Assembly (NCBI GenBank): GCA_037447655.1
Contig: JBBHKE010001214.1
Coordinates: 32,121-96,120 of the forward strand
Source: Zygnema cylindricum
Lineage: Eukaryota > Streptophyta > Zygnematophyceae > Zygnematales > Zygnemataceae
Length of the DNA: 64,000 nt
Direction: 5' to 3'
This document shows positions 20,593 to 46,929 of this stretch, one piece after another. The notes under the pieces are model-generated. The model saw nothing but the letters and a program-made list of their open reading frames with translations. It was not told the origin of the DNA and did not search any database. Both the position numbers and the translations under genes were made by a program. Within the stretch, counting starts at the first letter, position 1; every line of letters starts with the position of its first letter.

Positions 20593-20734
20593 CCCCATAT
20601 CAGTCAGTGTTAGAGAGAGAGATTCTCCATGCAGGATTATTGCCGCTTTAAAATAGCGACAGTTTCCACTTCTCTTGTAGCTTGAGGAAGTTGTGAGAGG
20701 AGCAGTTGCTTCTTGAAGGATTCCATCCATAGGG

Positions 20735-21913
20735 TGAAACTATATGGGGTCTATTCCCCCACTGAAATCGCAGATCCAAAGAAGCTTATCTAGATAGTGC
20801 CGGCTCCAAGTTAATATAAACCCAAATGACTGACACCCTGAAACTAAGAACCCCAATAAAGATTCACCCTTGTGAAAGAAGACTTTTTGTGTGTTCAGTT
20901 TCCCCACAGAATGCAAAGTTAGAAAATGTGTATTTGGACACATTCCCCTACTTTTACTTTCCCTTAGAAATACCGCCACCGTGGCAGGCAAAGATTGTGA
21001 CTGACTATACCCCTGTGTTATGTGAACTCCCTTGAGTATGCAGCAAAAGGAATCTCTGAATTTGTTCCCTTGAGCAGTTAGTTATTGCAGGCCAAAGTTG
21101 ACCTTTAGTACAAAAGCTCTCTCAAAGAGAGACGGCTACCTACTATTTCTCTAAGTCCTAAACCCCTCTCTAAACCCTCTACTACTGAAGTACGGCACCA
21201 ATCCTTGGACTGTACCGTACATAAAAGTACAGGTGCCGGAGAACTTTCTGTACGGCATTTGTACGACATAGCCATACCAGTGACATCTGTCACATCCGGA
21301 TTTGTTATCGTGCGCTCCGAAGATTTTGTAAACCCGTAAGATGTTGCCACTTGTCGTCCGGAGTGGCGGCGTCCAAAAACCGGCAAGGAGGCCATTACGG
21401 AATCTCGGCTCGCACCATGATGGTCGATCAAGGTCGTCTTGTGATACGGACCGTCGAAATAAAAGTCCGTATCATTCATTTCGTACGGTATATAAAGTAC
21501 AGTGGGTTCTATGGTTGAAGATTCTGTTCTAGCAGTTAAATGGAATTTTTGGCCCGTACACATTTAAATATCTATTGTACCCTATGTAGTTCAGCATTGG
21601 TCGTAGTCTTTAGGATAAAGATAACGGCTACGGCTGATTTTACGAACGTTAGGTACCAGGATCAAATCCAAAGTCTGTCAAATCTTTTTTGGTAAATCTA
21701 CCCAGATTTTGTTACCTGTCTCTCTAGACAGCTTAGGCAGCCATGACTCTAGCTCCCTCTCTAACCTTCAATGACTATGGCAAGTGTGGGGGTTAGAGAG
21801 AGGAGTTAGAGGCAGACTGCCTTCGCTTCTTTTCTATTTCAACTTAGAAAAATATCCTAAGAAAACATTATTTTCTACACAATACAGACCTATAAAATAC
21901 ACGTATTTCAACA
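20735..21913 (-). mobile_element. LTR G (solo-LTR-like) in left arm of the foldback
   Basis: 1179 bp, plus-strand ends TGAAACTATATGG...ATTTCAACA. It aligns with LTR F (52533-57389) along its length, and with the A/B/C LTRs in the U3 module and the block around 'AGTATGCAGCAAAAGGAATC'. The homologous right arm of the foldback lacks it, which shows it inserted later. The flanks TAGGG and TAAAG are a possible decayed 5-bp duplication. No internal region is attached. Confidence 0.75.
21606..21838 (+). ncRNA. Antisense U3 tRNA-like plus hairpin module (LTR G)
   Basis: Contains a box-B-like region (GGATCAAATCC, 21659-21669), then the conserved block AGGCAGCCATGACTCTAGC..., whose arm pairs with GAGAGAGGAGTTAGAGGCAG, then TTTT. 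The strand is opposite to the LTR. The tRNA-like part is decayed in this copy. Function is inferred only from the shared layout in other LTRs. Confidence 0.35.
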
Positions 21914-22435
21914 TAAAGAAGAGTGATGAGTGTGCTGCCTGAGTTGGATTTTCATTACGATTCCCTATTGTAGCATGAGACGGATGCCATTTTATTTTAT
22001 TTTGTTTTTTTTTTCTTCTTTGAGTTACTCGTGGTTTCGTTTTGAATTTGTGTTACTATTGTTCATATTTTTGATATTGCGACTATTTGAATACCACATT
22101 AGGGCCAAATATCCGAAATGATTTGAAGTGGTTTGGAACTCTTTTCGGAGTTCTTTATAAAAGAAATCCACACTACCGATAGTGAACTGGCCTATCAACT
22201 TCCCTCCTAAGTTAGGTTGAGACTGGCCGGCAGTGCAAAATTCAGCCGGCAGTTAGAAATGAGTATCTATCTCCATGCAGTCGGGACAAGCGTCACGACG
22301 TTTCTATCTCAAGTCTCTCTAGGACTGTTTTGAATAAGAGCTGTAGCTTTATTTGTAGCTGTACTTTTTTCAAACAATTTAGCAAAGGTCCGTACAGAAG
22401 TGCGGTTCTTGATTTTGCGAGCTTGCACTTGTGAG

Positions 22436-23173
22436 CATAGTTCAAAAGTAGGTGAAAGTAGGCCCATACAATATGCCTATTGTATGTAAAACATACAATA
22501 TGACCTTAAGAGCCATATTGTATGGGTCGCAAAATGAAAAAAAATAGTAACAAGGTTGAGTTGCACCTCGATCAATAAAGAATTAAACGTCATGTCTAAA
22601 TTTTGAAAAATATTGGGACAAATTTATTTATTTTGTGTGTTTTGAGGTATTTTTTATTTAAACCGTCAGATTTGGACGATCCGACGGCTGTTAATCAAAG
22701 TAGCGATCTAAAAAGATCACATGAAAAGCCCATAACACAACTTACGATAGGACTATCTGTCATATTACCGTCTGCAATTTTGAAGGCCACACTAAATAAA
22801 GCCTCAAATTGACCAACCAAGAAGTATGGGACGATAAAAAAAAAAAATTCCACACTGCCAAAAATATTAGCCAAACCTACCCGTTGGTGGCTGGTGGTTC
22901 ATTCACGGTAGAAATTTTGTTTGTCTGCCCCTCCGCGTTTTTTTTTTTTTCCGGGTTTTCTTTCCTGCGGAATGTCATCTTACGCCGTGTCAATTCGCTA
23001 AAAAATCTCGTCCGGCGGCGTGCGCTGTACTATGATCATATGTCAGATTTGAAGTTCGTACAAGAGTGTGCACAACGCACACAGATACAGTATGCCTACT
23101 CTACGCGAGTTTTGTGCCAAGTTTTGTGCGCCTACTAAAGGCCTACCATAAAAAGGCCTACTTTTGAACTATG
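22436..23173. mobile_element. hAT-like MITE (CATAGTTC family), long copy
   Basis: 738 bp with termini CATAGTTCAAAAGTAGG...CTACTTTTGAACTATG and a perfect 8-bp target duplication CTTGTGAG (22428-22435 and 23174-23181). It lies in the left arm of the foldback and is absent from the right arm. Relative to the 276-bp copy at 10302 it keeps roughly 450 bp more internal sequence. No transposase frame was seen. Confidence 0.88.
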
Positions 23174-23819
23174 CTTGTGAGCTAAAAGTTTGCAAAAAAC
23201 TCGCTAAAAAATTAGTGTAGAAAAATAATCGGTATGTGGAAAACCTTGGAGAGGAGAGGAGAATTATTTGCATTTATATGAGATAGGGTGCGGCTCAGAC
23301 GAGTGGGTGAACGAGAGAGAGAGGCAGAGGTAGGGAATGTGAATTGGCGAATAAAAAGAGCGAGGAAGTGGTATTATGGGGGGGAGAACATCACACAATA
23401 ATGCGCAGTCATGGTTCGTGCAAGACCATATTTGCCTGGCTTTGGTAGATGGATTTAGTACTCAACGATACTTGTGCTGACACAACAATTTAATAGATGA
23501 ATGAGCACTCTGCGCATAAGACAACAATCATTGTAGGCCGTTTAAATTAAATTAAGCTAAAGAATCAGCGTTAAGAAATAACAAGTATTGTTATTAGCAT
23601 TATTTTGTGGTCAGAGGGGCAATAAAAACCAACACCAAATTAGTGTGGTTAACGCTAGTACTAGTTGATGTGTCCTACGCTCGAAACTTAAAGCGTCATC
23701 CTAAGTACGGTCCGCAGTTTGCTGCCCGTACAGGACACCACATTACTGTAGCACAAGTTTTGACTGCGGAGAGCTTCAACGAATCGATGGACGGAACAAT
23801 TTCGCGTTAGGTGTATTAG

Positions 23820-25572: not shown

Positions 25573-25904
25573 ATTATTAGACTATGGAAATTATTAGAGT
25601 AAAGAAAAAATTAGCGTCATTAATTCTATTATTTTAATTTAGTTCCAGGATACGTGGCAGATTATGGTCCACGTCCTCAAATAGTGTAACTTATTCTATT
25701 TAAGGTATCAATGTCAAAATTTTGGGGTATATCGACACCCTATGTACGCTATATCGACACCCCAAAATTTTGACATTGATACCTTAAATAGAATAAGTTA
25801 CACTATTTGATGACATGGACCATAATCTACCACGTCTCCTGGCACTATTAGAATGAGTGACGCTAATTTTTTCTTTACTCTAATAATTTCTATAGTCTAA
25901 TAAC
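25573..25904. repeat. Palindromic core of the foldback
   Basis: The arms include 50 bp of perfect complementarity (25679-25728 with 25759-25808) around a 30-nt spacer that carries TATATCGACACC twice. Imperfect pairing continues out to both hAT copies, which abut the core on each side. Confidence 0.9.
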
Positions 25905-27010: not shown

Positions 27011-27240
27011 TAATATATACGTCCAACGTGATATTGTTCCGTCCACCGATTAGCTGAAGCTCTTTGCAGTGAAACCACCTTGTGCTACAGTGATGGCCAG
27101 ACTGTAGACCGAACTGTACTGATAAGGGCGTATTTAGTTTCGAGCGTATGATACAAAAACACGAATTGATAATAGGTTCAATCACACTAATTTGGTGTTG
27201 GTTTTTCCTGCCCCTCTGACCAAAAAATAACGTTAATAGC

Positions 27241-28051
27241 CTTTGTTGGGTATCTAGGACCTTTTGCCATTATTGGATATATATTGAATTTCAGGTACTC
27301 GATAATCGATGTATCGCCTCGATATATCGAAAAATTAAAATATCGCGATATATCGTATCGTCAACATATCGAGGCATTTAAAAAAAATGAAATTTTCACA
27401 AGTCTCTAAAGTCACGTGCCTTCGGACAAGGTGATTGTAAAATCTTTGCCGAAGAGAAATAAAGTTTTTTTCCTGAAAGTCATGAGAGTGAAGGAGATCT
27501 ATGAGGTACATTGACACGGTACACTTGCGAAGTACACGTACGTAATACGCAAGTACGGAGTTCCATACGAAAATGGTCGGTTCTCAAATCTTTGACGATT
27601 TTAGGAGATTTGATCGTCAATTTACAAGAACCACTCAAATCAAAACACGCATGTAAAAACTTGTTAACAGAAGAAACGCGATGTTAACCGAGACCTCGTT
27701 AATACAAAAGTTTTGCTTTCCATACTTTTACAAAGACCTCCTAATGTAACCATACTCCAAATAATTATTCATATGAATCACATAATTTGTACTTTTTTGT
27801 CGGTTACATTTTGCGGCGTCTACCTTTAAGTCACGGAACGAAAATCACGTCGTACGTGGCGTATCAGACAATTTGTATTTTTCGCAAACATATCATATTA
27901 GAATATATAATATTAAATTTAAAAAAATACCATGTATCGCGATAATTTATGTTGGACTCGGTATGATATATCGAGGAGTCTGCTCGATCGATGTTCGATA
28001 TATCGAACATCGAAATTATCGCGACATGAATTTACCCGATACCCAACAGTA
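27241..28051. mobile_element. Non-autonomous hAT-like element, copy 3 (different family)
   Basis: 811 bp with inverted ends around TGTTGGGTATC/GATACCCAACA. Flanks TTAATAGC (27233-27240) and CTAACAGC (28052-28059) are an 8-bp duplication with two transitions. The empty site survives in the opposite foldback arm (near 23605), which confirms the insertion. The interior is rich in TATCG/CGATA and has no transposase frame. Confidence 0.78.
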
Positions 28052-29121
28052 CTAACAGCAATACTTGTTATTTGTTAACGCTGATTCTTTAGGATTATTT
28101 AATTTAAACTGCCCACAATGATTCTTGTCTTATGCGCAGAGTGCTCATTCTTCTAACAATGTTGCGTCTTGCACGAACTATGGACCATTACTGTTTCATG
28201 TTCTTCACTCTAAAATACCACTTTCCTCACTCTTTTTATTCTCCAATTCACATTCTCTACCTGTGCCTCTCTCTCTTTGTTCCACTCGTCTGAGCCTCAC
28301 CTTATCTCATATAAATGTCAGTCATTCTCCTCTCCGAGGTTTTCCACGCATCAATTATTTTTCTACACTAATTTCCTAGCGAGCTTCTTGCAAACTTTTA
28401 GCTTGCCCTTCTAACAAATGCAAGCTCATAAAATCAAGAACCGTACTTTTGTACGGACCTCTGCTAAAATGTTTGAGCTACAACTCTTATTCATTACAGT
28501 CATAGAGAGACTTGGGAAAGAAACCTCAATGTCGTGACACTTGTCCTAACTGCATGGAGATAGATAGATACTGATTTCTAACTGCCGGCTGAATTTTGCA
28601 CTGCCGGTCAGTCTCAACCCAAACTTAGGAGGGAGGTTGACATGGAAACCAATAGCAGGGCCAGTTCACTGTGGGTAGTGTGGATTTCTTTTGTGTGGAT
28701 TTGGTTTTTTTGTGTGGTTTTTTTTTTTTTTGTCCAAAAAGAGTGCAAAACCATCAGTTATTTGGCCCTCCGGAGTTATTGAAATAGCTGCAGTATCAAA
28801 AATATAAACAATAGTAACACAAAGCCAAAACGAAACCAAAAGTAACTCACACCAAAACAAAAAAAAAACAAACAAAAAAAAAACACATCTGTTTCATGCT
28901 AGTGGATAGTAATAAAAATTTAACTCAAGCAGCACACATGTCTCTCTTCCCTATGGGTGGAGTCCTTCCAGAAGCAACTCTTCTTCTCACAGCTTCCTCC
29001 AGCTACAAGAGAGGTGTGAGCTGTTGCCATTCTAAAGCGACAGTAATCTTGCGCGAGGAAAATCTCTCTCTCATCCGAGGGAAAAACAGACAACAATTTC
29101 ATTACAGACGAATAGTGCATA

Positions 29122-29453: not shown

Positions 29454-30332
29454 TGTTGAAAAAAGTATTTTCTAGGTCAATTAGATAAAAAGTGAAGAGA
29501 GCGCAAGCAGTCTGTCTCCACCTCTCTCCCTCCATCCCCCATACTACCCCTCTCCCTCCATCCCCCATACTTGTTGTAGTCAATGGAGGAGAGAGAGAGA
29601 GTATTGGAGCCATGGCTACCTCAGCTCCACTTGTGCAAGACTAAAGAGTGACCAAAGTCACTCTCAACAAAAGGTTGAGTCCAACAGGACTCGAACCCCC
29701 GACTGCAGAGTATGGCATAGCCGTCAACTCTAGCTGGTCTCTCGTAGAAGTTCGCTAGAGTATATAGGGTTTGATAGATATTTAAACATTGTTACGGTAG
29801 TTATTCCGCTTAACAGAAATACAGACATAAGTACATGGAGTGGATTAAATACAGTACAAATATGATTCCGCACTAAACAAATGAATCAAACATTTGTTTC
29901 GACGGTTCTGATCAAATGCGAAATTCTATCCGACGGCGCACGTCATCGCCGCGATCCCAGAATGGTCACTTTAACATTTAGTGACGTGGCATAACGTGGC
30001 GCCACGTGGAGAGATAACATTCGGTCGCGGGAATTCTGAGGAACTTACGGACGAGTGAAAAGTGGACAAGCGTCCCATTAATAGCCTTGTCGTACATAAG
30101 CAGTAGGCAGTAGTACTTTTTCGTACGATACACTATTCTAATTGGTCTGTACTTTAGTAAATAGGAGTTATTATAGGGAATCAGGACTTAGAAAGTTTTG
30201 GTAGGCAAACACCTCTCTCTTTGAGAGTTTGTACAAATTGGCATTTTTTACTGCCTCATAACTTATCGCCTGGTTGGGCATTATTAGAGATTCTTTTTCC
30301 TACGAACTCAAGAGAGTCTAAGCTACACAGGG
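29454..30332 (+). repeat. 5' LTR of element C, first part
   Basis: Begins TGTTGAAAA and is homologous to the 3' LTR (51260-52213) and to the solo LTR at 60143-61137. A TATA-like GTATATAGGG at 29759-29768 probably marks the promoter. Element A interrupts it at 30333, and it resumes at 43233. Without A and a later 155-bp duplication it is about 1000 bp, matching the 995-bp solo copy. Confidence 0.9.
29487..29760 (-). ncRNA. Antisense U3 tRNA-like plus hairpin module (C 5' LTR)
   Basis: On the minus strand: a tRNA-like segment from 29760 with canonical box B GGGTTCGAGTCC (29698-29687), then TTTT (29672-29669). The pyrimidine/purine hairpin region follows, and TTTTT at 29491-29487. The T-run directly after the tRNA-like part resembles a Pol III terminator. 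The strand is opposite to element C. Structure is judged by eye; no transcript evidence. Confidence 0.45.
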
Positions 30333-31364
30333 TGTAACTGTGAGATCTTTATAGGTCCTTAGAGTAGGAAGCTCACAAGAAGCCTCTAGGTAAACCCTGA
30401 CCCCTTTGTGTTTCAACAAGAATAACTACCAACCTGGTACACAAAAACTCTGACCACCTTCACCTTTGTGAAGGCAAGACTCCCCTCAGTCGATAGCAAA
30501 AAGAATCTCTAAATTTGCTCCCCTGAGTAGTAAGTTATGTGGGGTCAATGCTGACCTTTTGTACAAAAGCTCTCTAGGAGAGAGGGTCCTATCTATGAAA
30601 TTTTTCTAAGTCCTATCTCTATCTAAAACTCTATCTAATGAAGTACAGCACAAATCATAATACTGTATCATACAGAAAGGTACAAGTGCCGGTGTACTTT
30701 CTATACGGCCATTGTACGACATGACAAATAAGTCGACACATGTTATTTTTGGATTCCAACATGAAATCCTTGGAGATGCCGTATTCCAATATGCTTGTGC
30801 CACGTGTCATTCGATGTGATGTTGACTGTAAACCGCAGAAAAACTATTCCACGATCTCGGCATGCTTCGCAACCGACCGATTAAAACGGATTTCAATCGT
30901 AGCCGTCATAAATACTTGCGCGATTTTTGTTTCGCCTTGTAAACAAAATGCGCGGTATCCGTTTCGCATATTTCGTACGCCGTACATTACAAACTGCTTC
31001 TATGTCCAAATATCTCGTTAAATGAAATAACATGGGTACAGATTTATCTGTTTGTCAAACCCAATATCGTATTACTTTGATTCTAGTTTAATTGGTTAAG
31101 GCTACCGGCTACAGGCAGCTTTGACGGAGGGTAGGTACCAGGGTCAAATCCTGGGTGCGTCAAGTTCTATTTCGGTAAATCTACCAATCTAAAGTCTGTC
31201 CCCGTCTAGATAGCATAGGCGGCCATGGCTCTATCTCCCTCTCCAACTTTAAGTGATTGCGAAAAGTGTGGGAGCTGGAGAGAGGAGTTAGAGGCAGATT
31301 GCCTATGCTCTTTTTTGCCTTTTACAAAACCTAGAAAATACTAAAATAGACTTTAATTTCTAGA
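30333..31364 (-). repeat. 3' LTR of element A
   Basis: Plus-strand ends TGTAACTGTGAG...TTTCTAGA; the terminal CA has become GA. It aligns with the 5' LTR of A after removal of B. Confidence 0.88.
31083..31316 (+). ncRNA. Antisense U3 tRNA-like plus hairpin module (A 3' LTR)
   Basis: Best-preserved structure. Box-A-like TTGGTTAAGGC is at 31092-31102. A T-arm with a perfect 5-bp stem, CCAGG-GTCAAAT-CCTGG, is at 31138-31154. Next comes a hairpin of about 98 nt whose base pairs perfectly (AGCATAGGC 31212-31220 with GCCTATGCT 31301-31309), then TTTTTT at 31311-31316. The order (A box, B box, hairpin, T-run) fits a Pol III unit. It is antisense to element A. Confidence 0.5.
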
Positions 31365-31471
31365 CTCCCCTTATTTTCTAGTCACTCTTTATTTTAAGAC
31401 CACACTTCTCTCGGTAGAGAATTAGTTTAGGAGAAGGCACAAGTTTGATCATCATATCTGCTACCATTTCA

Positions 31472-34400
31472 CTAACTGGTTTTATACTCCAAACTGATTA
31501 CTTTGTTTTCTACTTTCTCTCTAACAAAGCTAAGTCTAATGTCCATGTGTTTGGTTGTAAAGTGATGTTTAGGATTGGCAGAAATGGCAATGGCAGCCTG
31601 ATTATCACAAAACACTTTTTGGACACCACTCTTTAGATGACCAAGCTCACCAAGCAAAGACTTGACCCACTTTAGTTCTTTTACAGCACAGCAAGAAGCC
31701 ATGAACTCAGCCTCCATAGTGGACTGAGCAATGACCATTTGCTGCTTGCTGCTCCAGCAACAATCTCTATCACCCACATACAATACATATCCAGATGTGA
31801 ATCTCCTCATAGGAGCATCCTCGTAGCTGGCATCACTCCAAGTGGTGATGTCAGTATTGTTCCCACCCAAATGTAACCATAGATCCCTAGTTCCTATGAG
31901 ATATCTAAGGACTCTCTTAGCTGCCTCCGAATCTTTCTTAGTGGGAGCATTCAGACTTCTACTTAGTACTCCTACAGCTGCGGCTATGTCCGAACGGGTA
32001 CAATTCATGAAATATATTATGTTGCCCACTACTTGTCTATAAAGGAAGGTCCGCATAATTTTTTTCTCTTCCATGCCTACCTCATCATCTAGCATTATAA
32101 CTCCATCTTCCACACTCCCCTCACATCCCTTCTTTAATTCCATAGGAGTGGTTTAACTGTTAGCCTTGTTCATTTGGAATTTTTCTAACATATTTCCAAT
32201 GGCCTCTTTTTGAGTTAATCTTATTATTTTCCTATCTCTGTCTCTCTCTACTTGAATTCCCAAAATATACCTTCCTTCTCCCATATCTTTCATCTCAAAT
32301 CTTCCTTTTAGATCATTTTTCAACTTGTTTATTTTATCCATAGATTTACTTAAAACAAGCAAATCAGCAACATAAATTGCAATAAAAATAATTCCTTTCC
32401 TCATCCTCAAACAAATAAATTGAGTGATATGAGCTGATCTGAATAAATCCCAAACTTGTAAGAAACTCATCGAGCTTATTGTTCCATTGCCGGGGCGCCT
32501 GTTCAGCCCATACAAAGTTTTGATCAATCGGCATACCTTGCTTTCCTCCCAAATCTCCACAAATCCTTCAGGATGTCGAATAAAAACTTCCCCTTCCAAC
32601 TCTCCATGTAGGAAGGCCATCTTGATTTCCATCTGATGCACTTCCATGTCTTCTGCTGCCGCCATACTGAGAAGTATCCGAACCGAAGGAAACCTGACGA
32701 CCAGAGCAAAAGTCTCCTCGTAGTCAATTCCCTCTTTCTGGGTAAATCCTTTCGCCACTAACCAAGCCTTGTAGCGCTCTATGGTGTTAACCGGGTTATG
32801 TTTCAACTTAAATACCCACTTACACCCAATTGGCTTCCTGTCACGAGGACAATCCATCATTACCCATGTATCAGCAACCATTATTGAGGCCATCTCCTCA
32901 TTAATGGCTGTCTTCCACCGGCTTCTCTCAAGACAAGTCATTGCCTCATTGAAAGTTTGAGGTTCATCGGTGTGAGACAGTTTGGTTACCTTATTGTTGA
33001 CTTGCCTCTCTTGTAGTCTTTTGCTGCTTCTTCTTCCTCCCTCAAACACGGTTTCCAAAATAGATGGCCCTCTTAAATTCTTCCGAACAGTTTCTACTTC
33101 TCCCTTAACTCTTGCTTAGGGTCGTTTTCCACCACGTCTTCCGCTTTGGTTGGAGTTAATACTAGGGGTTTCACATTTGGGTCCTTCACGATTTGATTTG
33201 TGCCTGTAAGAATATCATCTTCTTGAAATCATGGATAGCTAGGAAGCTCAAAGTCATAAGAATTTTTTACTCAAATCTGATTTTGACTGTCTTTGTATGT
33301 TTAAAGGGATATATAGATTTTCCTTCATCCATAACCACTAGATGCTTCACTACGATAATATCCTCTCTTTTGAGATAATAGACTCTATATCCTTTTACAT
33401 CTTTATCATATCCTAGTCTTATCGTGGTTTTCTTTTTGGATCTAACTTCCAGTTTGACCAATCTGTGTCTAGACTGAACACTTGACTACCGAAAACCTTT
33501 AAGTGTGAAACATGTGGTTTTCGGCCTGTCCATCTCTCATAGGGTGTTTGGCCTTTTACTGCTGAAGTAAGAAATCTATTCTTGAGATAATTTGCACAGT
33601 TCATTGCTTCGGCCCAAAACTTCTTTCTTATCTTTTTATCTGACAGAATACTCCTAGCACTATCACTGAGTGTTCTATTTAATCTTTCAGCTACACCATT
33701 CTGCTCAGGATTTTCAAGAATTGTCTTTCGGAGTTGCACTCTATCTTCTCTCACAAAATCCTCAAACTGGTTAAAGGTATACTCTCCACCATTGTCACTC
33801 ATTACTCTCTTGATTGAGGTTTCATGAAATTTTTCACTCCATGCTTTATATTGTTTAAAACATTCCTGAGCCTCTGACTTATTTTTCTAAAAATACACCC
33901 TGGAATATCGAGACCAATCATCGGTGATACTCATCATAAATCTCTTCCCCTTGGGTGATGGCACTTTGGCAAGCCCCCAAATATTTGTGTGTACTGAATC
34001 TAGAATCTTTTCTCTTTTATAGGTGGCAATTTTTGGGAGGGGTAACCTGTGTGCTTTACCTTGAGCACATCCACTGCACTCACTTAGATTCTCACTCTCA
34101 CCAAATTGAATTCCTTCCACTTCTCCCAACTTTTTCAACTCTCTTAACTTATCTAGATTCACATGCCCAAGCCTCTTATGCCACAACATTATATCATGAA
34201 CACCAACATAATAAAGTTTATTCTTTTCATTTCTTAAAATCAGCCTAAACATCCCGTGGTTACCTTTTCAGCAGTAAAATAAACTTACTCCTCAAAACAA
34301 GCAGTAAAGACTCCTTTCCTAGTGCTAATATCAAAACCCTTATCATCTAATACAGATGTAGAGATGAGGTTTTTGTTTAGCTCCGGAATAAACAATACAT

Positions 34401-35704
34401 CGGAGAATGTAACTATGGATGTCTTTCCTTCTACTAACACTTTTAGATCTACCGATCCTACAAGAGTAGTAGTGCCTATCCTCTCATCCCCGTACTCTAT
34501 CTCTACGGTGAGAATCTTTATTATCTTAGTGAAGAGGTGTTTATCGTTACACATGTGCATGGATACACGTGAGTCTACAATCCAGCGTGCCTCACCTTTC
34601 AATCCACCGAAAGCACATTTTTGCTTTCGTGGAATTTTGACCTCGTTTTTCGCTTTCAACTCCTCATCCAATAGAAGTTCACCGTCCTCGGATTCCGCCT
34701 CATATACCTGTGTCACAAGGGCCTTTTTCTTTCCTGTCGGGGGTCCACCGGTCTGCCCCTCTTTTAAATGCAACTCGGTTAACTTAGTGCATTTAGCCAT
34801 TTAGGGCCTGGGTTTTTTACAAAAATGGCACAAACCCTTGGAGTACTTGGTCCGAATTCCTCGGTTTGATTTTTATGCCCCTCCCCTCGATAAGTTCTAA
34901 CATGTTTCTTGGAATCATTGTTCTTCCAATCGGTCCCAGCTACCAAAGCTTGCTTACTCTTTCCTCCCGTTCGAATATTAATCGTATTCCCGCGAACAAG
35001 AATCATCCCTACCACAGAATTCCAAATCCACCTTGAATCCGCCAAGTAATGCACACGGTTGACTATGTTCTCGAACTCATCAGGTAACTTCATCAGTAAA
35101 CATTTAACCTTTTCCTTTTCACTAAATACTTTACCAGCACTCTCTAGTTCCATGATTTGTGTAACAAACTTATTGCAAAAGTCCAACATTTTCCCCCTTT
35201 GTATACATACTCGTTAATTTTATGATCAACCAACTTTTGTTGCTGAATCGTATCACTTCGGTACATCTCTAAGAGAGCCACCCAAAGTTCGGATGCCTTC
35301 TCTACGTGCAAATGGGGAGATGCAAGCCCTTGAGTCAGATGGCGGAGGATGAAGTGCTTATCCGCCATATTGTTGTTATCCCAGGTATCGATATCATTCT
35401 CCTCGTTCCTCGGAATAGGTGACATGAATACGGAACTGGTTGCTATTGGTGTGACCGTCTCCTTCTCTTTTCATTTGTCCACAACCTCCCCTCTCTTTTT
35501 CTCCTCCATTGAAGATGGATCTGCATCTTTAGTGAATATGCCTTCGTAAACCCAAGAGGTATCCCAAGACTTGATGGACGCCTCACCAGTCCACTCATTA
35601 TTCCCCAAAAACGTCTCTCACATAGAGCTCCCGTCATCATACTTTCCCAGTATATAAAACCAGTTCCATTGAATATGGACACCCTAGATGGTGGGCCCAT
35701 AACC
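31472..35704 (-). pseudogene. gag-pol of copia A (degenerate)
   Basis: Domains in order, minus strand: gag from the PBS ATG (IFNGTGFIYWESMMTGAL; RHLTQGLASPHLHVEKASELW); protease with DSGAS changed to DSRVS near 34570; GAG-pre-integrase (WHKRLGHVNLDKL; CSGCAQGKAHRLPLPK); integrase (SDNGGEYTF, ENPEQNGVAERLNRTL); reverse transcriptase (33058-32153), where the YVDD box reads YVAD; and RNase H (TWSDASYEDAPMRRFTSGY; FCDNQAAIAISANPKHH). Several frameshifts and stops separate these parts. It is not functional. Confidence 0.9.
35691..35704 (-). promoter_or_regulatory. Primer-binding site of A, half-tRNAiMet type
   Basis: GGTTATGGGCCCAC on the element strand directly abuts the 5' LTR. It is complementary to the anticodon arm of initiator tRNA-Met (GTGGGCCCATAACC), not to the tRNA 3' end. 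The gag ATG lies within the site. Confidence 0.8.
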
Positions 35705-36171
35705 TGTAATTTTGAAACCTCCATAGGTCCTCAGAGTAGGCAGCTCACACGAAGCCTTTAAGATAACCCTGACCCCTTTGTGTTTCAGCAAGAATAACTA
35801 TCACCCTGGCAAAAATAAATTTTGACCACCTTCACCATTGTGGAGGCAAGACTCCTTTGAGTCGATAGCAAAAAGAATCTTTGAATTTGCTCCCTTGAGT
35901 AGTAAGTTATGAAGGGTCAAAATTGACATTTTGTACAGAAGCTCTCTTGGAGAGAGGGTCCGATCTATTAAATTTTTCTAAGTCCTATCTCTGTCTAAAA
36001 CTCTATCTACTGAAGTACGACACCAATCATAATAGTGTATCATACAGAAAGGTATCGGTGCCGGTGTACTTTCTATACGGCCATTGTACGACATGGCAAA
36101 TAAGTCGACACATGTTATTTTTGGATTCCATCTGAAATCCTTGAAGATGCCGTATTCCTATATGCTTGTGC
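35705..36171 (-). repeat. 5' LTR of element A, part next to the PBS
   Basis: Begins (plus strand) TGTAATTTTGAAACC and matches 30333 onward. Element B interrupts it at 36172, and it resumes at 42661, ending TTTCTACA at 43227. Confidence 0.9.
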
Positions 36172-37241
36172 TGAAACTCTAAGACCTCCATAAGCCCTCA
36201 GAGTGGACAGCTTCGAAAAAGTCTCTAGGATAACCATGACACCTTTGTGTTTCAGCAAGAATAACTACCACCATGGCAAAAAAAACAATGACCACCTTCA
36301 CCTCTGTGAAGGGAAGACTCCACTGATTCGATAGCAAAAAGAATCTCTGAATTTGCTCCCTTGAGCAGTAAGTTATAAAGGGTCAAAGTTGACCTTTTGT
36401 ATAGAAGCTCTTTGGGAGAGAGGGTCCTATCTACCAAGTTTTCCAAGTCCTATCTCTCTCACAAACTTTATCTACTGATGAACGAAACAAATCATATTAC
36501 AGTTCCATACACAAAAGTAAAGCTGCCGGTGTACTTTATGTACGAAAACTGTATGACATGGCGAAAAAGTCGACAGATGTCATATCCGGATTCGAACCTG
36601 TAATCCCCGTGGATGCCGGGATCCAACGTAGTTTTGCCACGTGTCATCCGATTTGGCGATGACCACAAACCATCGAGATTCTCTTCCGCGATCTCGGTTT
36701 TCTTCTCGACAGTCTGATTGAATGCAGATTTCAATCGTAACCGTCATAAATACTTGCGCGGTATTTGTTTCGTTAAAGAAATAAATGCGCGGTACTAATT
36801 TCTTATACATTTCGTAATCCGTACTTTTACATAATTGGATCTATGTATCCCGTAAACAGTTGCAGTTAAATGAATTATCCTACGTAATAATATTTAAATA
36901 AATATCAAACCCTTTATTATGTATCATTAGTCTTAGACTAACGGTAAGACTGCCGGCTATCGGCTATCTAACATTCCGCAGGTACCAGGATCAAATCGTG
37001 GTTCTTATATCTATCCTTTTAGTAAATAAACTACTTATGGGTAAAAAAACTAATCTATTTAACCTAAAAAAAACCTCTAGATAGCCTAGGTAGCCATGGC
37101 TCTGGCTTCCACTCTAACTTCCTAGTGACTACGACAAGTGTAGGAGTTGGAGAGAGAAGTTAGAGATAGACTGCCTCGACTTCTATCTGTATCTTAATTT
37201 AGACTTAGAAATTACTTAAAAAGGAACCATCAATTTCTACA
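36172..37241 (-). repeat. 3' LTR of element B
   Basis: Near-identical by eye to 41589-42655. Contains the U3 module at about 36930-37190, although the T-run after the hairpin is interrupted (TTCTATC). Confidence 0.9.
36925..37195 (+). ncRNA. Antisense U3 tRNA-like plus hairpin module (B 3' LTR)
   Basis: T-arm-like CCAGG-ATCAAAT-CGTGG (one mismatch) at about 36984-37000, then the conserved block TAGCCTAGGTAGCCATGGCT and its partner arm GAGAGAGAAGTTAGAGATAG. It lacks the T-run seen in families A and C, so it is weaker as a transcription unit. Confidence 0.3.
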
Positions 37242-37467
37242 CTCCCCTTATTTTCTAGTCAATCTTTAATTTTAGACCACACTTCACCTGCAGAAAATTA
37301 GCTTTGGGGAAGGCACAGGTTTGGTCATCATATCTGCTACCATCTCACTATCTGGACAGTACCATAAACTAATTATTTGTTTTCTACTTTTTCTTTTACA
37401 AAGGTGAGTCTAATGTCCATGTGTTTGGCTTTAAAATGATGTTTAGGATTGGCAGATATAGCGATTG

Positions 37468-40400
37468 CTACCTGATTATCACAAAAAAATTATGCACACC
37501 ACTCTTAAGGTGACCAAGCTCACCAAGCAAAGACTTGTCCCACATCAATTCTTTTATAGCAAAGCAAAAGGCCATATACTCAGCCACCATGGTGGATTGA
37601 GCAATAACCTTTTGTTGTTTGCTACTCCAACAGCAAGCCCCATCACCCACATATAATACATATCCAGAAGTACATCTCCTCATCAGATCATCACCATAAC
37701 TGGCATCACTCGAAGTAGTGATGTCAGTATTCTCACCACCCAAATGCAACCATAGATCCCTAGTTCCTATCAAATATCTAAGGACTCTCTTAGCTGCCTC
37801 CCAATCCTTCTTAGTGGGAGCATTTAGACTTCTACTCAGTACTTCTACAGCTGCAGCTAAATCCGGCCGGGTACAATTCATAAAATAGATTAGACTTCCC
37901 ACTACTTGCCTGTAAGGAATAGTCTGCATGAACTTCTGTTCTTCATGAGATAATTCCTCGTCTAAGACTACGACTCCTTCTTCCTCACTCCCCTCACTTC
38001 CCCTCTTCAACTCCATTGGAGTTGTACAAATATTAGCTTTATCAATTTGAAAATTTTCAAGCATGTTCCCTATTGCTTCCTTTTGAGTCAGTCTTATAAT
38101 TTTTCTTTTTCGGTCTCTCTCTACTTGAATTCCCAAAATATATTTTGCTTCCCCCATATCTTTCATTTCAAATCTCCCCTTAAGATCGGTTGTCACTTTA
38201 TTAAATTTTTCCATTGTTTTACTTAAAACAAGCAAATCATCAACATAAATTGCAATAAATATAAAACCTTCCTCATCTTCGAAAACATAGATTGAGTGAT
38301 CTGAGCTGATCCGAATATATCCCAAACCGGTAATAAACTCATCAAGCTTCTTATTCCACTATCGAGGCGCCTGTTTCAAACGATAAAGAGATTGAATCAG
38401 TCGGCATACCTTACTCTCCTCTCCTTCCTCCACAAATCCTTCGGGTTGTCGCATGAAGATCTCTTCTTCCAATTCTCCATGCTAATAGGTTGTCTTGATG
38501 TCCATCTGGTGCACCTCCATGTCTTCTGCTGCTGCTAAACTAAGAAGTATGCGGACGGAGGGAAATCTGATGACCGGGGCAAAGGTTTCCTCGTAGTCAA
38601 TTCCCTCTTTTTGTGTGAATCCCTTTGCCACTAATCGGGCCTTGTAATGCTCATTTGTGTTATCTAGGTTCAGTTTTAATTTGAAAACCCACTTACAACT
38701 GATTGGTTTTTGGTTAGGTGGACAATCCACTAGCTCCGAAGTATCGGCCGCCATAATTGAGGCCATCTCCTCATTGATGGTTGTCTTCCACCGGTTTCTT
38801 TCTGGGCAAGTCATCGCCTCTCCATAAGTCTGAGGTTCATCTTGATAAGATAGTTTTGTTACCTTGTTATTAACCTGTGTTTCCTACAATCTTTTCCTAC
38901 TTCTCTTTCCCCCCTCAAAATCTGAGGTCGGAATATATGGTTCTCGTGGGTTCTTTGGAACAATCTCGCCTTCTCCCCTGTCCCTTGATTCCGAATCAGT
39001 TTCCACCACGTCTTCCGCATCGGGTAGAGTTGTCTCTAGAGTTTCCGCAGCCGAGATCTTTTCGGTTTGATTTGAACCTGTAAGAATGTCATCTACTCTA
39101 AAACCTAGATAATTAGGAAGTTCAAAGTCATCGGAATTTTCTGACTCAAATCTGATTGTTACTGACTTTGTATACTTGAAGGGATCCACGGACTTTCCTT
39201 CATCCATAACAACTAGATGCTTTACTAAGATTATATCTTCTCTTTTTAGATCATAAACTCTATATCATTTAACATCCTCATCATATCCTAATAAGTATCT
39301 TGGTTTTCCTTTAGGATCTAGCTTCCAATTAGACCAATCTGTATCTAGACTGAATACTTGACTGCCGAAAACCTTTTAGTGAGATATGTCTGGTTTCCGG
39401 CCTGTCCATCTCTCATAAGGTGTTTGATCTTTTATAGCTGAAGTAAGAACTCTATTTTTGAGGCAATTAGCACAGTTCATTGCTTCGGCCCAAAACCTTT
39501 TTCCTTTCTTCTTATCCGACAACATACTTCTAACACTATCACTTAGTGTCCTATTTAATCTTTCACCTACCCGTTCTGTTCCGGGTTTTCTAAAACTGTC
39601 TTTTGGTGTTGGACAACATATTCCCTCAAAAAATCTTCAAACTGGTTAGAAGTATACTCTTCACCATTGTCACTCCTTACTCTCTTGAATAGGAGTTTCA
39701 TTGAGTTTTTCGCTCCAAGTTTTATATTGTCTAAAACAATTATGAGATTTTGACTTGATTTTCAAAAAATACACCATGGAATACTTAGACCAATTATCAG
39801 TGACAGTCATCATAAATCTCTTCCCCCTCGGTGAGGGCACTTTAGCCAGTCCCCAAATATCTGTGTGTACTAAATCTAGAATTATTTCTCCCATATAAGT
39901 GGATGTTTTGGGAAAGGGTAATTTGTGTGCTTAACCTTGAGCACATCCACTACAATCACTTATATTATAACTCTCACTAAACTGAATCCCTTCCACCACT
40001 CCTTCTTTTCATCTCTCTTAAGTTATCTAGATTCAAATGCCCAAGCCTCTTATGCCACATCATAATATCATGAACACCTGCATAATAAAGTTTCTTCTTT
40101 TCATTACTTAAAACCAGCCTAAACATCCCTTGGTTACCTTTCTCAGCAATGAAATATACCTCTTTCTCAAAACTAGCAGTAAAGACTTTTTCCCAAGTGC
40201 TTGTATAAAAACCCTTATCATCTAATACAGATGTAGAGATGAGGTTTTTGTTCAGCTCCAGAATAAACAATACATCGGAGAATGTTACTATAAATGTCTT
40301 TCCTTCTACTAACACTTTCATTTCTACCGATCCTACAAGAGTAGTAGTGACTATCCTCCCATCCCCGTAATCTATCTCTACTGTGGGAATCTTTCTTATC

Positions 40401-41588
40401 TTAGTGAACAGGTGCTTATCCTTACACATGTGCATGGAGGCACCTGAATCTATAATCCAGCCTGCTTCACCTTTCAATCCACCGTAAGCACATTTTTGCC
40501 TTTGTCGAATTTCGACTTCGTTTTTCGCCTCCAACTCCTCATCCAATAAGAGCTCATCGTCCTTGTCCTCAGATTCCGCCTTATGTACCTATGTTACAAG
40601 GACCTTTTTCTTTTGTCTCGGGGTTCCACTGACCTGTCACTCCTTTAACTGAAGCTCGGTTAGCTTAGTGCACTCTGCCATATAGTGCCGCGATTTCTTA
40701 CAAAAATGACATAAACCATTGGGAGCCCTTGGTCCGAACTCGTCGATCTGATTTTTTTGCTCCCTCCACCCATAGTTTCTGACCGGTTTGCGGGAATCCT
40801 TGCTCCTCCAATCGGTCGCAGCTGCCAAGGCTTGCCCACTCTTTCTTACCCTTCGGATCTCAATCGTATTCTCTCAAACAAGAATCATCCCTACTACTGA
40901 GTTCCATATCCACCTTGAGTCCGGCAAGTCCTGCACACGGTTGACTATGTTCTGGAACTCATTCGGTAACTTCATTAGTAAATAGTTAACCTTTTATTTT
41001 TCACTAAAATCTTTTCCAACACTCTCTAGCTCCATAAAAAGTGTAGCAAGCTCACTGCAAAAATCCAACATCTTCCCCCCTTTGTATACATACTCCTTAA
41101 CTTTCTGATCAACCAACTGTTGTTGCTGAATCGTACCACTTCGGTACATCTCTATGAGAGCCATCCAAAGATTGGATGCTCTTTCTACATGCAAATGAGG
41201 ACATGGAAGTCCTTGAGTAAGATGGCGGAGGATGAAGTGCTTTGCCCCTATATTGTTGAAGTCCCAAATATCAGTATCATTCTCCTCGGTCCTCAAAATA
41301 GGTGACATGAATGTTGAACCAGTTGCTATTGGTGAGGTCGTCTCCTTCACTGTTGCTTTGTCCACCACCTCTCCTTCCCTTGTCTCCTCCGTTGAAGATG
41401 GATCTGCTTTCTTTGTGAATCTGTTTCCTCTAAACCCTGGAGGGATTCCAAGACTTTATGGACGCCCCACTTTGCCATTCACTATCCCCCAAAACCTTTT
41501 CTCGCATAGAGCTCCTATCATCATACTTTCCCAATATATAAAGTCACTTCCATTAAATATGGGTACCTTAGATGGTGGTTCCATAACC
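37468..41588 (-). pseudogene. gag-pol of copia B (degenerate)
   Basis: gag starts in the PBS (ATGGAACCACC) and continues through TDIWDFNNIGAKHFILRHL. Zinc knuckle CHFCKKSRHYMAEC is intact (about 40712-40753). The protease keeps DSGAS (about 40450). GAG-pre-integrase WHKRLGHLNLDNL and integrase LDLVHTDIWGLAKVP follow. Reverse transcriptase keeps YVDD (IAIYVDDLLVLSK, near 38240), and RNase H keeps SSDASYGDDLMRRCTSGY. Frameshifts and stops lie between the gag, integrase and RT blocks. It is better preserved than A, as expected for a later insertion. Confidence 0.9.
41575..41588 (-). promoter_or_regulatory. Primer-binding site of B, diverged half-tRNAiMet type
   Basis: GGTTATGGAACCAC directly follows the LTR. 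It matches the A/D/E site except for the central bases (GGAACC in place of GGGCCC). gag starts at its ATG. Confidence 0.65.
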
Positions 41589-42655
41589 TGAAACTCTGAG
41601 ACCTCCATAAGCCCTCAAAGTGGATAGCTTCCAAGATGTCTCTAAGATAACCTTGACTCCTTTGTGTTTCAGCAAGAATAAGTACCACTATGGCAAACAA
41701 AAACACTGACCACCTTCACCTCTGTGAAGGGAAGACTCCCTTGAGTCGATAGCAAAAAGAATCTATGAATTTGCTCCCTTGAGCAGTAAGTTATGAAGGG
41801 TCAAAGTTGACCTTTTGTACAGAAGCTCTTTGGGAGAGAGGGTCCTATCTACCAATTTTTCCAAGTCCTATCTTTCTCACAAACTCTATCTACCGATGTA
41901 CGGAACCAATCATATTACAATTTCCGTACACAAAAGTAAAGCTGCCAGTGTACTTTATGTAAGGAAACTGTATGACATTGCCAAAAAGTCGACAGATGTC
42001 ATATCCGGGTTCGAAATTGTAATCCGCGGGGATGCCGCGATCCAACGTAGTTTTGCCACGTGTCATCCGACGTGGCGATGACCACAGACTGCCGAGATTC
42101 TCTTCCGCGATCTCGGTTTTCTTCCGGGCCGTCCGATTGAATGCAGATTTCAATCGTAGCCTTCATAAGTACTTGCGCGGTATTTGTTTCGTAAAAGAAA
42201 TAAATGCGCGGTACTAATTTCTTATACATTTCGTAATCCGTACTTTTACAAAACTGGATCTATGTATCCCGTAAACAGTTGCAGTTAAATGAATTATCCT
42301 ACGTAATAATATTTAAAAAAATATCAAACCCTTTATTATGTATCATTAGTCTTAGACAAACGGTAAGACTGCCGGCTATCGGCTATCTAACATTCCGTAG
42401 GTACCAGGATCAAATCGTGGTTCTTATATCTATCCTTTTAGTAAATAAACTACTTATGGGTAAATAAACTAATCTATTTCCCGTAAACCTCTGGATAGCC
42501 TAGGTAGCCATGGCTCTAGCTTCCTCTCTAACTTCCTAGTGATTGTGACAAGTGTGGGAGTTGGAGAGAGAAGTTAGAGATAGACTGCCTCGACTTCTAT
42601 CTAAATTTTAATTTAGACCTAGAAATTACTTTAAAAGGAACCATCAATTTCTACA
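41589..42655 (-). repeat. 5' LTR of element B
   Basis: 1067 bp, plus-strand ends TGAAACTCTGAG...TTTCTACA, followed by target copy TGTGC. It contains the U3 module at about 42335-42605. Confidence 0.9.
42335..42605 (+). ncRNA. Antisense U3 tRNA-like plus hairpin module (B 5' LTR)
   Basis: Same layout as the B 3' LTR copy: GGTACCAGGATCAAATCGTG, then TAGCCTAGGTAGCCATGGCT and its pairing arm. No clear T-run follows. Confidence 0.3.
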
Positions 42656-42660
42656 TGTGC

Positions 42661-43227
42661 CACGTGTCATTCGATGTGACATTTACCGTAAACCGCCGAT
42701 ATACTATACCACGATCTCGGCATGCTTCGCGGCCGTCCGATTAAAACGGATTTCAATCGTAGCCGTCAAAAATACTTGCGCGATATTTGTTTTGCCTTCG
42801 AAACACATTACGCGGTATCCGTTTAACATATTTCGTACGCCGTACATTACAAACTGCTTCTAAGTCCAAATATACTGTTAAATGAAATAAACTACGTGTA
42901 CAAATTTATCTGTTTATCAAACCCTATATCGTATAACTTTGATTCTAGTCTAATTCGTTAAGGCTACCGGCTACAGACATCTTTGACGCACGGTAGGTAC
43001 CAAGTTGAAATCCTGGGTCGGTCAAGTTCAATTTTGGTAAATCTACCAATCTAAGGTCTGTCCCAGTCTCGATAGCATAGACGGCCATGGCTCTATCTCC
43101 CTCTCCAACTTTGAGTGACTGCCACAAGTGTGGGAGCTGGAGAGAGGAGTTAGAGGCTGACTGCCTGTGCTTTTTTTCTGCATTTTACACTACCTAGAAA
43201 ATACTAAAATAACCTTTAATTTCTACA
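42661..43227 (-). repeat. 5' LTR of element A, distal part
   Basis: Resumes A's LTR after element B (CACGTGTCATTCGATGTG) and ends TTTCTACA before the CAGGG target copy. Confidence 0.9.
42944..43177 (+). ncRNA. Antisense U3 tRNA-like plus hairpin module (A 5' LTR)
   Basis: T-arm CCAAG-TTGAAAT-CCTGG (one mismatch), hairpin block ATAGACGGCCATGGCTCTAT with pairing arm, then TTTTTTT at 43171-43177. It keeps the layout of the 3' LTR copy. Confidence 0.45.
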
Positions 43228-43462
43228 CAGGGGTGTTGTCAAATTGTATGCTTGTCTGTTTGGGTTGCACTGGTTGCCATTTAAAGTGGGTTAGTCAATA
43301 AATATTAGAGGCAGACTGCCTGTGCTTCTTTTCTGCATTTTACACAACCTATAAAATACTAAAATAGCCTTTTATTTCTACACAGGGGTGTTGTGAAATT
43401 GTTTGCTTGTCTGCTTAGGTAGAAGTAGTTGCCATTTAAAGTGGGTTAGTCAATAACTATCT
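43153..43462. repeat. 155-bp tandem duplication across the A/C junction
   Basis: Two copies starting at 43153 and 43308 (GAGGCTGACTGCCTG and GAGGCAGACTGCCTG). Each contains the end of A's LTR, the TTTCTACA|CAGGGG junction and the following C LTR sequence (GCCATTTAAAGTGGGTTAGT). The duplication therefore arose after A inserted. Confidence 0.85.
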
Positions 43463-43508
43463 ATAGGCTTCATAAATTCTGTAGTCCATTGGAGGACACA
43501 GAATTGCA
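43233..43508 (+). repeat. 5' LTR of element C, second part
   Basis: Resumes C's LTR after element A and ends GGAGGACACAGAATTGCA immediately before the PBS. The same end occurs in the solo LTR (60143 onward, reverse complement). Confidence 0.88.
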
Positions 43509-43531: not shown

Positions 43532-44452
43532 TGTTGTCCATAGCCATTTCTAGCCATGGATTCACCCTAGGAAGCACCACAGACTACCCTAAAAACAGCG
43601 TACTTTGGATACACACAGAATTCAACAGAAATAACAAAACTAACTGAAACTACATTTACAGATATTATCTAGGATATAAAATGACCTCACAAAGTTTCAC
43701 ACAAAAATAATAAACAGATTGATCACATCATCTAGTCAAAGTTGCAGAAAAACAGTCTGCCACAACTTTGTCGATCAGACAGGCTAACTTCACAATGAAG
43801 TAAAACACATACCAGGCACACAATAGACCTGAAAATATGTGACAATGTTAAAAATATAAATAGGAACAAACATGCAGAATTTCAGATGATTCCGCTAGCA
43901 GATTTGAGAGTAATCCTCAGATAAAATTACCAAAAATAACCATAAACAGTTTTTGGTCCAAAAAGTTCCTATGTCCTAAAATGACGAAGTCCTACAAATA
44001 TATACAAGAGTTTACTGCTGAATGTACGGAGGCATATCAGCGGTACGCTATCTACCAGCTACCTCTATTAATGTCGGTATACCTGAATACTTCAAGGTAT
44101 GTCAAAGTGAGTAAATCTACACTAATAATTAATTCACAAAAAGACACATCAATGTTCAACCAAATATTTACATCGACGCTTCCGTATAATCCGCGTACTG
44201 AGTATCAACTTGATTAGTCACTTGAGGACAAAACCACGTCATGAACCGACATCACATACGTACGGTCCACTTGATACCACATTATCAAAATACAATCCTT
44301 TAACTTCAATTGTACAATTACTCCCCCAATCCACAAATCCATTCGAACCTCCATTTGTACCACCACAATATTTCCGGTAATAATCTACGCACGAACCGTC
44401 GCGTGCGCACAAAATGTGGCGTAAGTACGAAACTAACATTTCAAAAACAACA
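43532..44452 (-). repeat. 3' LTR of element D
   Basis: 921 bp. It keeps a 34-bp stretch (around AAAGTTGCAGAAAAACAGTC) that is deleted in the other LTR. I found no tRNA-like module in the D/E LTRs. Confidence 0.9.
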
Positions 44453-46068: not shown

Positions 46069-46929
46069 GGATTCACCCTAGGAAGCACCACAGACTACCC
46101 TAAAAACAACGTACTTTGGATACACACAGAATTCAACAGAATTAACAAATCAAGCTGAAACTACATTTACAGATATTATCTAGGATATAAAATGACCTCA
46201 CAAAGTTTCAGACAAAAATAATAAACAGATTGATCACATCATCAACTTTGATCAGACAGGCTAACTTCACAATGAAGTAAAACACAGACCAGGCACACAA
46301 TAGACCTGAAAATCTGTGACAATGTTAAAAACATAAATAGGAACAAACATGCAAAATTTCAGATAATTCCGCTAGCAGATCTAAGAGTAATCCTCAGATA
46401 AAATTACCAAAAATAACCATAAACAGTTTTTGGTCCAAAAAGTTCCTATGTCCTAAAATGACGAAGTCCTACAAATATATACAAGAGTTTACTGCTGAAT
46501 GTACGGAGGCATATCAGCGGTACGCTATCTACTAGCTACCTCTATTAATGTCGGTATACCTGAATACTTCAAGGTATGTCAAAGTGAGTAAATCTACACT
46601 AATAATTAATTCACAAAAAGACACATCAATGTTCAACCAAATATTTACATCGACGCTTCCGTAAAATCTGCGTACTGAGTATCAACTTGATTAGTCACTT
46701 GAGGACGAAACCACGTCATGAACCGACATCACATACGTAAGGTCCACTTGATACCACATTATCAAAATACAATCCTTTAACTTCAATTGTACAATTACTC
46801 CCCCAATCCACAAATCCATTCGAACCTCCATTTGTACCACCACAATATTTCCGGTAATAATCTACGCACGAACCGTCGCGTGCGCACAAAATGTGGCGTA
46901 AGTACGAAACTAACATTTCAAAAACAACA
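46043..46929 (-). repeat. 5' LTR of element D
   Basis: 887 bp. It contains the upstream gag ATG (46068-46066) and ends CAACA before target copy TATGG. Confidence 0.9.

Follow-up and report, generated by a model that had tools for sequence, protein, structure and literature searches.

The 64-kb stretch of DNA analysed here (the window) contains nested copia-type elements. Eight LTR copies within it, namely two each from elements A and B, the solo LTR E, and C1, C2 and C3, carry a unit, antisense to the element, in which a tRNA-like stretch is followed in most cases by a T-run and then by a hairpin of approximately 100 nt, usually with a second T-run after the hairpin. The positions are collected in Table 1. 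The elements are identified as LTR retrotransposons by their paired LTRs, by the 5-bp TSD TGTGC that flanks element B (36167-36171 and 42656-42660) and by the PBS of element A, and as copia-type by RVT_2 in A and B and Pol_BBD in B and C1. Matches to gag_pre-integrs in the frames that hold these domains were below the Pfam cut-off, and Retrotran_gag_2 was found in a neighbouring element. The Pol-domain frames lie on the minus strand in A and B and on the plus strand in C1, so that the tRNA-like strand is antisense to the element. The 5' LTR of A is interrupted by element B (36172-42655), and C1 is the 3' LTR of a plus-strand element with pol-side frames at 47516-51199. Elsewhere in the window, the frame at 3772-9843 has its best protein matches in the lycophyte Diphasiastrum, at 37% identity.

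Table 1. LTRs of the window that carry the antisense unit, and the parts of the unit in the 3' LTR of element A
Feature	Position	Strand	Content or evidence
Element A 3' LTR	30333..31365	- (element sense -)	matches 35704-36171 and 42656-43228; RVT_2 on - at 32153-33115
Box A / D-arm-like stretch, A 3' LTR	31084..31102	+	top A/B pair of scan; G10, G19, T20, A21 kept in 17-18/18
T-arm, A 3' LTR	31138..31154	+	B box 31141-31151; best conserved stretch in 260 bp upstream of hairpin
First T-run site (TTT) and small hairpin GGTA/TACC, A 3' LTR	31170..31185	+	T4+ in 38/40 A copies
Long hairpin, A 3' LTR	31209..31310	+	folding, covariation, covariance-model match
Second T-run (T6), A 3' LTR	31311..31316	+	read directly; T4+ in 40/40 A copies
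Conserved AT-rich island adjoining box A	31056..31073	.	alignments
Element A 5' LTR, part beyond nested B	42656..43228	-	T-arm 43000-43016, hairpin 43066-43174 (+)
Element B 3' LTR	36172..37241	-	unit on +: T-arm 36985-37001, TTTT 37017-37020, hairpin 37075-37184
Element B 5' LTR	41589..42655	-	unit on +: T-arm 42404-42420, TTTT 42436-42439, hairpin 42489-42598
Solo LTR E	20735..21913	-	unit on +: T-arm 21656-21672, T6 21685-21690, hairpin 21722-21830
LTR C1	51260..52216	+	unit on -: box B 51478-51488, AAAA (T-run) 51460-51463, hairpin 51306-51425
LTR C2	29454..30329	+	unit on -: box B 29687-29697, AAAA (T-run) 29669-29672, hairpin 29497-29634
LTR C3	60267..61126	-	unit on +: box A 60872, box B 60912-60922, T5 60937-60941, hairpin 60975-61083

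A first-pass annotation of this DNA had placed such units on the strand opposite to the retroelement, roughly 50-290 bp from the U3 end, in good agreement with the distance found here (about 49-282 bp). The pairing that it described in the 3' LTR of A was also correct: the T-arm is paired 5/5 (31138-31142 with 31150-31154) and the base of the hairpin 9/9 (31212-31220 with 31301-31309), with the T6 next to it. It counted ten copies. A hairpin covariance model built from the eight copies matches the same eight and nowhere else in the window, and partial repeats at 51649-51807 and 43305-43383 could supply the rest. In a crude scan of both strands of the 64 kb for A/B-box pairs, three of the top five pairs were units in LTRs (the A 3' LTR, C3 and C2), and the remaining two were located elsewhere.

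Several rearrangements were seen in and around these LTRs. Within C1 there is a tandem duplication of about 160 bp (51489-51647 and 51649-51807, 93% alike), whose second copy has the box-A side without box B. A second duplicated stretch (43150-43312 and 43305-43468, approximately 90% alike) runs from the end of the 5' LTR of A into its neighbour, and solo LTR E breaks an older inverted repeat (20613-23816 and 27017-29072). The other copia LTR pairs of the window (43532-44452, 46043-46929, 53077-54112 and 55585-56620) gave no match to the hairpin model; two of the model-negative pairs were read, and have the word GGTTCGAAT on the presumed sense strand.

Conservation of the B box and the T-runs

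Further copies were taken from the genome to which the window belongs (352.8 Mb in 2689 contigs). For each query the best of 3177-3905 first-look candidates were scored, comprising 40 places each for A, B and C3 and 41 rows for E; since these are the best matches, the within-family figures below are biased toward similarity. Alignment sets, with window copies included, were obtained from 40 of 40 places for A, 39 of 40 for B, 30 of 41 rows for E and 21 of 40 for C, making 130 aligned copies in four families, six of them the window's own. Two rows (loci L040 and L058) are a neighbouring copy within the same locus. The hairpin model, run on the window and on 66 of 108 loci (283,446 bases), gave 15 further full-length matches besides the query copies. 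Two of these were already in the B set, so that 13 units are new, and BLAST with C queries had also found four of the 13; partial matches in three loci (L041, L094 and L001) were excluded. The 15 matches and six window copies make 21, which were reduced by dropping three near-duplicates (two B-like and one C) to a diverged set of 18 copies, five of them from the window.

In the diverged set, identity over 11 consecutive positions upstream of the hairpin (254 such segments) is highest at the T-arm, at 0.77 compared to a median of 0.48. A B-box rule scores 0.955 at 31141-31151. Of the 858 positions scored on the two strands (mean 0.38, sd 0.10), the runner-up reaches 0.778, and 17 of the 18 copies fit the rule at 31141-31151 at 10 or more of its 11 positions if A54 and T62 are allowed. 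Leaving out the five window copies hardly changes the result (0.951, next best 0.769; 12 of 13 fit). In tRNA numbering, G53, T55, purine57, A58 and T60 are present in all 18 copies, C56 in 17 and C61 in 16, and positions 54 and 59 are variable. The T-loops of tRNAs show the same pattern of constraint, fixed and variable at the same positions. The perfect motif GGTTCRANNCC is found in 17/21 C copies and 14/40 A copies, and in none of the B (0/39) or E (0/30) copies, of which 12/39 and 7/30 have it if A is allowed at position 54; the B box in the 3' LTR of A in the window is one change away from the consensus.

Comparison of families A, B and E gives a similar picture. Net divergence among them is 0.05, 0.06 and -0.00 in the T-arm, compared to 0.12-0.46 in box A, in the middle part, in the segment leading to the T-run and in the spacer. 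Differences in the T-arm within one family are usual (0.15-0.22), and in combination with the near-zero net divergence this points to selection on active lineages. Other islands are equally conserved among these three families, specifically 30940-30957 and the hairpin loop; the 17-nt T-arm ranks 10th of 451 segments in conservation and the exact 11-nt B box, which has the T/A difference at position 54, ranks 63rd of 457.

Box A and box B are 57 nt apart in A, and the first T-run starts some 14-18 nt past box B. A run of at least four T's is present within 32 nt after box B in 106 of 109 copies (A 38/40, B 39/39, E 29/30), compared to TTTT in 24% of random 36-mers from the loci. The 3' LTR of A in the window has TTT alone at this site. 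In family C the run is found in 18/21 copies, and in the diverged set 15/18 have it no more than 40 nt past box B. The T-run that the first-pass annotation described directly after the tRNA-like part of C is not special to this family. A second run of four or more T's follows the long hairpin in 40/40 A, 33/39 B and 26/30 E copies.

The tRNA-derived SINEs have a tRNA-like head with boxes A and B, a body and a T-run. The unit shares this layout, and it could be a fossil: a tRNA-derived SINE, or a reverse-transcribed tRNA, that entered the U3 of an ancestral LTR and has since been carried without function, which would also fit the fact that no cloverleaf remains. The first-pass annotation had likewise compared the order of parts with a Pol III gene or SINE. 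A tRNA-like module with a B box and an ordered T-run are supported; a cloverleaf (by ARAGORN and Rfam) and a standalone SINE were not found in the window. The units differ from SINEs in lying within U3 and being copied with the LTR, and all eight window hairpins are inside LTRs. A functionless fossil is also hard to reconcile with a B box that in the 18 copies is more conserved than any other part of the region preceding the hairpin and varies mainly at positions where tRNAs permit it; that differs normally within one family, yet is conserved across diverged copies; and with a first T-run that is kept across families despite diverged surroundings. We consider this origin without present function to be unlikely.

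The long hairpin, its strand, and box A

The hairpin is more stable than its dinucleotide shuffles in all eight window copies (z from -2.0 to -6.3). The tRNA-like part is unremarkable in this respect in seven of them (z from +0.1 to -1.6), and stable in C3 (z -3.6). Covariation was measured over eight hairpin rows, which are not all independent: the paired cells amount to 92.6% compared to 88.4% (sd 0.9) after shuffling, a value reached by 0/500 shuffles; the covariation score is 0.295 compared to 0.217 (0/500); nine pairs are changed on both sides compared to 5.9 (14/500); and there is no excess of further pair types (230/500). The compensatory changes for which the first-pass annotation had asked are thus present, and four pairs differ on both sides among A, B and E. 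We conclude that a tRNA-like module with B box, a T-run and a covarying hairpin are common to several copia-type LTR families, as that annotation had proposed.

Two other readings were discarded. Among miRNA families in Rfam, MIR5185 scores 33.6 bits against a cut-off of 101.7, and a small ORF that the A copy has in its hairpin arm is missing from those B, E and C copies that were read.

The strand on which the hairpin acts was approached by counting G.U against A.C pairs in the antisense reading. In the A, B and E copies the hairpin has 247:130, a ratio driven by a few fixed pairs, and the tRNA-like part 157:223. The fixed hairpin differences among A, B and E, which are pairs hand-chosen after the hairpin count, comprise six G.U to one A.C. 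Over the 18 diverged copies the counts are 48:41 in the hairpin, 23:11 in the T-arm region, 26:18 in the tRNA-like part and 9:16 in the small hairpin. With 48:41 in the hairpin, such counts settle on neither strand. Fold energy was rejected as evidence on this question: the antisense fold is more stable in 37/40 A, 31/39 B and 26/30 E copies, but shuffled letters show a similar bias, so that this preference is explained by composition.

These results bear on a second explanation, in which the element's own RNA uses both the hairpin and the stem that resembles a T-arm, for 3' end formation, dimerisation or packaging, and the likeness to promoter boxes is incidental. Sense transcripts contain U3 at their 3' end, the hairpin covaries, and a function in sense is compatible with the counts for the hairpin (over the 18 copies), for the small hairpin and, in A, B and E, for the tRNA-like part. 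The fixed hairpin differences lean to the antisense. In addition, a sense RNA leaves several features without an account: G53, T55, C56, purine57, A58 and C61 at tRNA spacing, a T-run past box B that is an A-run in sense, and the resemblance of family C to tRNAs on the antisense strand only (see below). We find a role in the sense RNA improbable.

Box A is less well kept than box B, and matches its rule weakly. In the diverged copies, positions of the D-arm are conserved (G10 17/18, G19 18/18, A21 17/18, C25 15/18), but taken as a whole the box-A rule comes third in the region, at 0.789 with a best of 0.796, because position 11 is a purine in 16/18 copies. The pattern TRGYNNARNNGG fits 24/40 A copies and no B (0/39) or E (0/30) copy. 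Compared with other positions of the region, box B stands out, in favour of the first-pass annotation, and box A does not. Between the boxes there is a word CGGCTA (31106-31111 and its counterparts), in which the final TA never varies and the other four letters are present in 13-16 of 18 copies. A use at the level of DNA, with the B box as a TFIIIC site of the extra-TFIIIC type that forms a boundary, or an upstream element for Pol II transcription in sense, and makes no RNA, would suit a B box kept far better than box A. It would also suit the position of the B box, which in element sense precedes the conserved AT-rich island, the presumed TATA region, by some 70 bp. DNA binding would, however, require neither the conserved T-run nor the covariation of the hairpin, and we regard this as the least probable of the explanations.

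Resemblance to tRNAs and a candidate Pol III promoter in U3

On the window, ARAGORN called no tRNA cloverleaf, and Rfam, with the limit relaxed to E 10, found no tRNA in the window, in C3 or in the 12 C copies run out of 20 retrieved. Lowering the ARAGORN thresholds produced 154-331 tRNA calls in 64 kb and was of no use. Tools that require a cloverleaf find no tRNA, and the unit is therefore not filed as a tRNA gene. Against a panel of 20 distinct tRNA sequences from the window's own genome, in which initiator Met is absent, the mean score of C copies is 32.4 in the direction of the unit and falls to 20.3 on the reverse strand, with Lys(CTT) as best match in 11/21. With the same panel, again without initiator Met, A, B and E are hardly above the reverse strand (25.5/23.9, 23.8/21.7 and 22.6/20.2 respectively).

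A comparison with 23 plant tRNA sequences gave initiator Met as the top match for 36/39 B, 27/30 E and 18/40 A copies. The mean best scores against this second panel are 31.6 for B, 26.2 for E and 26.4 for A, with 19-22 for the reverse strand and for an upstream control. In the 3' LTR of B, 27 of 34 positions match nt 39-72 of the initiator tRNA. The PBS of element A at 35689-35704 (plus as primer strand) matches nt 24-39 of plant initiator tRNA-Met at 16/16 positions. PBS-like stretches at 35689-35704, 41573-41588, 46029-46042 and 54113-54126 (minus) match its anticodon region at 16/16, 14/16, 14/14 and 14/14 positions. A half-tRNA primer site is known for Drosophila copia. Given that initiator Met both resembles the T-arm and fits the PBS of A, the unit may have been captured from the primer.

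We propose that the U3 of these copia-type LTRs holds a tRNA-derived type-2 Pol III promoter, antisense to the element, which is kept by selection and faces away from the Pol II promoter that the element is presumed to have. We put the probability of this reading at roughly 0.6. It is built on what can be read in the DNA: the order and spacing of the parts, the tRNA-like constraint on the B box, the likeness of family C to host tRNAs, which is confined to the unit strand, and the covariation of the hairpin. Under this proposal TFIIIC would bind the B box and Pol III would start just upstream of box A, producing an RNA of about 95 nt that ends at the first T-run, or of about 240 nt including the hairpin if there is read-through. 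Each LTR may then double as a putative small RNA gene. The unit would lie directly upstream of the site where Pol II presumably starts on the element, facing away from it, and so may keep the Pol II promoter open or insulated. Some 10 bp from box A there is the AT-rich island at 31056-31073, which read on the minus strand is a possible TATA region for Pol II; being suited to a sense TATA, it would place the two promoters back to back. Selection on active element lineages would maintain the unit.

A more elaborate version is that these elements form a copia clan with a divergent LTR promoter, in which a Pol II promoter in sense is combined with a captured antisense tRNA promoter that yields an RNA with a tRNA-like part and a hairpin, arranged as in a TMER. 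The lineages would need this RNA or promoter as antisense regulator or chromatin opener, and the likeness of the T-arm (in B, E and some A copies) to initiator tRNA-Met, the primer of the element, suggests capture from the primer. We offer this version tentatively, and consider it appreciably less likely than the promoter proposal itself.

A comparable plant case is provided by the LTRs of Cassandra TRIM elements, which are described as carrying 5S RNA with Pol III promoter boxes and a terminator, in a role to be established (PMC7215508). In that description, as here, a unit resembling a Pol III gene, with promoter boxes and terminator, is located within each LTR of a plant element. Cassandra is presented there as non-autonomous with 5S-derived boxes A and C, in contrast to the tRNA-type A and B boxes, antisense orientation, copia pol domains and covarying hairpin of the units here. 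Unlike Cassandra LTRs, the window has no Rfam match to 5S rRNA, and unlike the non-coding internal domain of Cassandra, the internal domains of A and B carry pol domains. In layout the units also resemble the TMERs of MHV68, Pol III RNAs of 200-250 nt in which a tRNA-like element is followed by two pre-miRNA hairpins (PMC4838037); as described there, TMERs are viral genes outside LTRs with two such hairpins. Pol III-directed small RNAs (microRNA) from a retroelement are described in foamy viruses, LTR-encoded in one simian virus; these are animal retroviruses, and a tRNA-derived head is absent from the descriptions that we compared. A pattern scan of viral contigs gave 0 matches, and in the literature searched, as judged at the level of search results, a tRNA-derived antisense unit in LTRs was not found.

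If the units are transcribed, Pol III units in plant LTRs would be recurrent and not a peculiarity of the 5S RNA in Cassandra, in this case tRNA-derived, antisense and in pol-bearing elements. The candidates in the genome are many: the first-look sets counted above overlap between queries, and the best 40 of each were scored. Transcribed units would also make it possible to ask directly if LTR promoters escape silencing with the help of TFIIIC sites, and would point to a source of structured antisense RNA against U3. A separate long hairpin in the window, at 25669-25818, resembles Rfam MIR4371 on both strands at a score below the cut-off, and may be a MITE.
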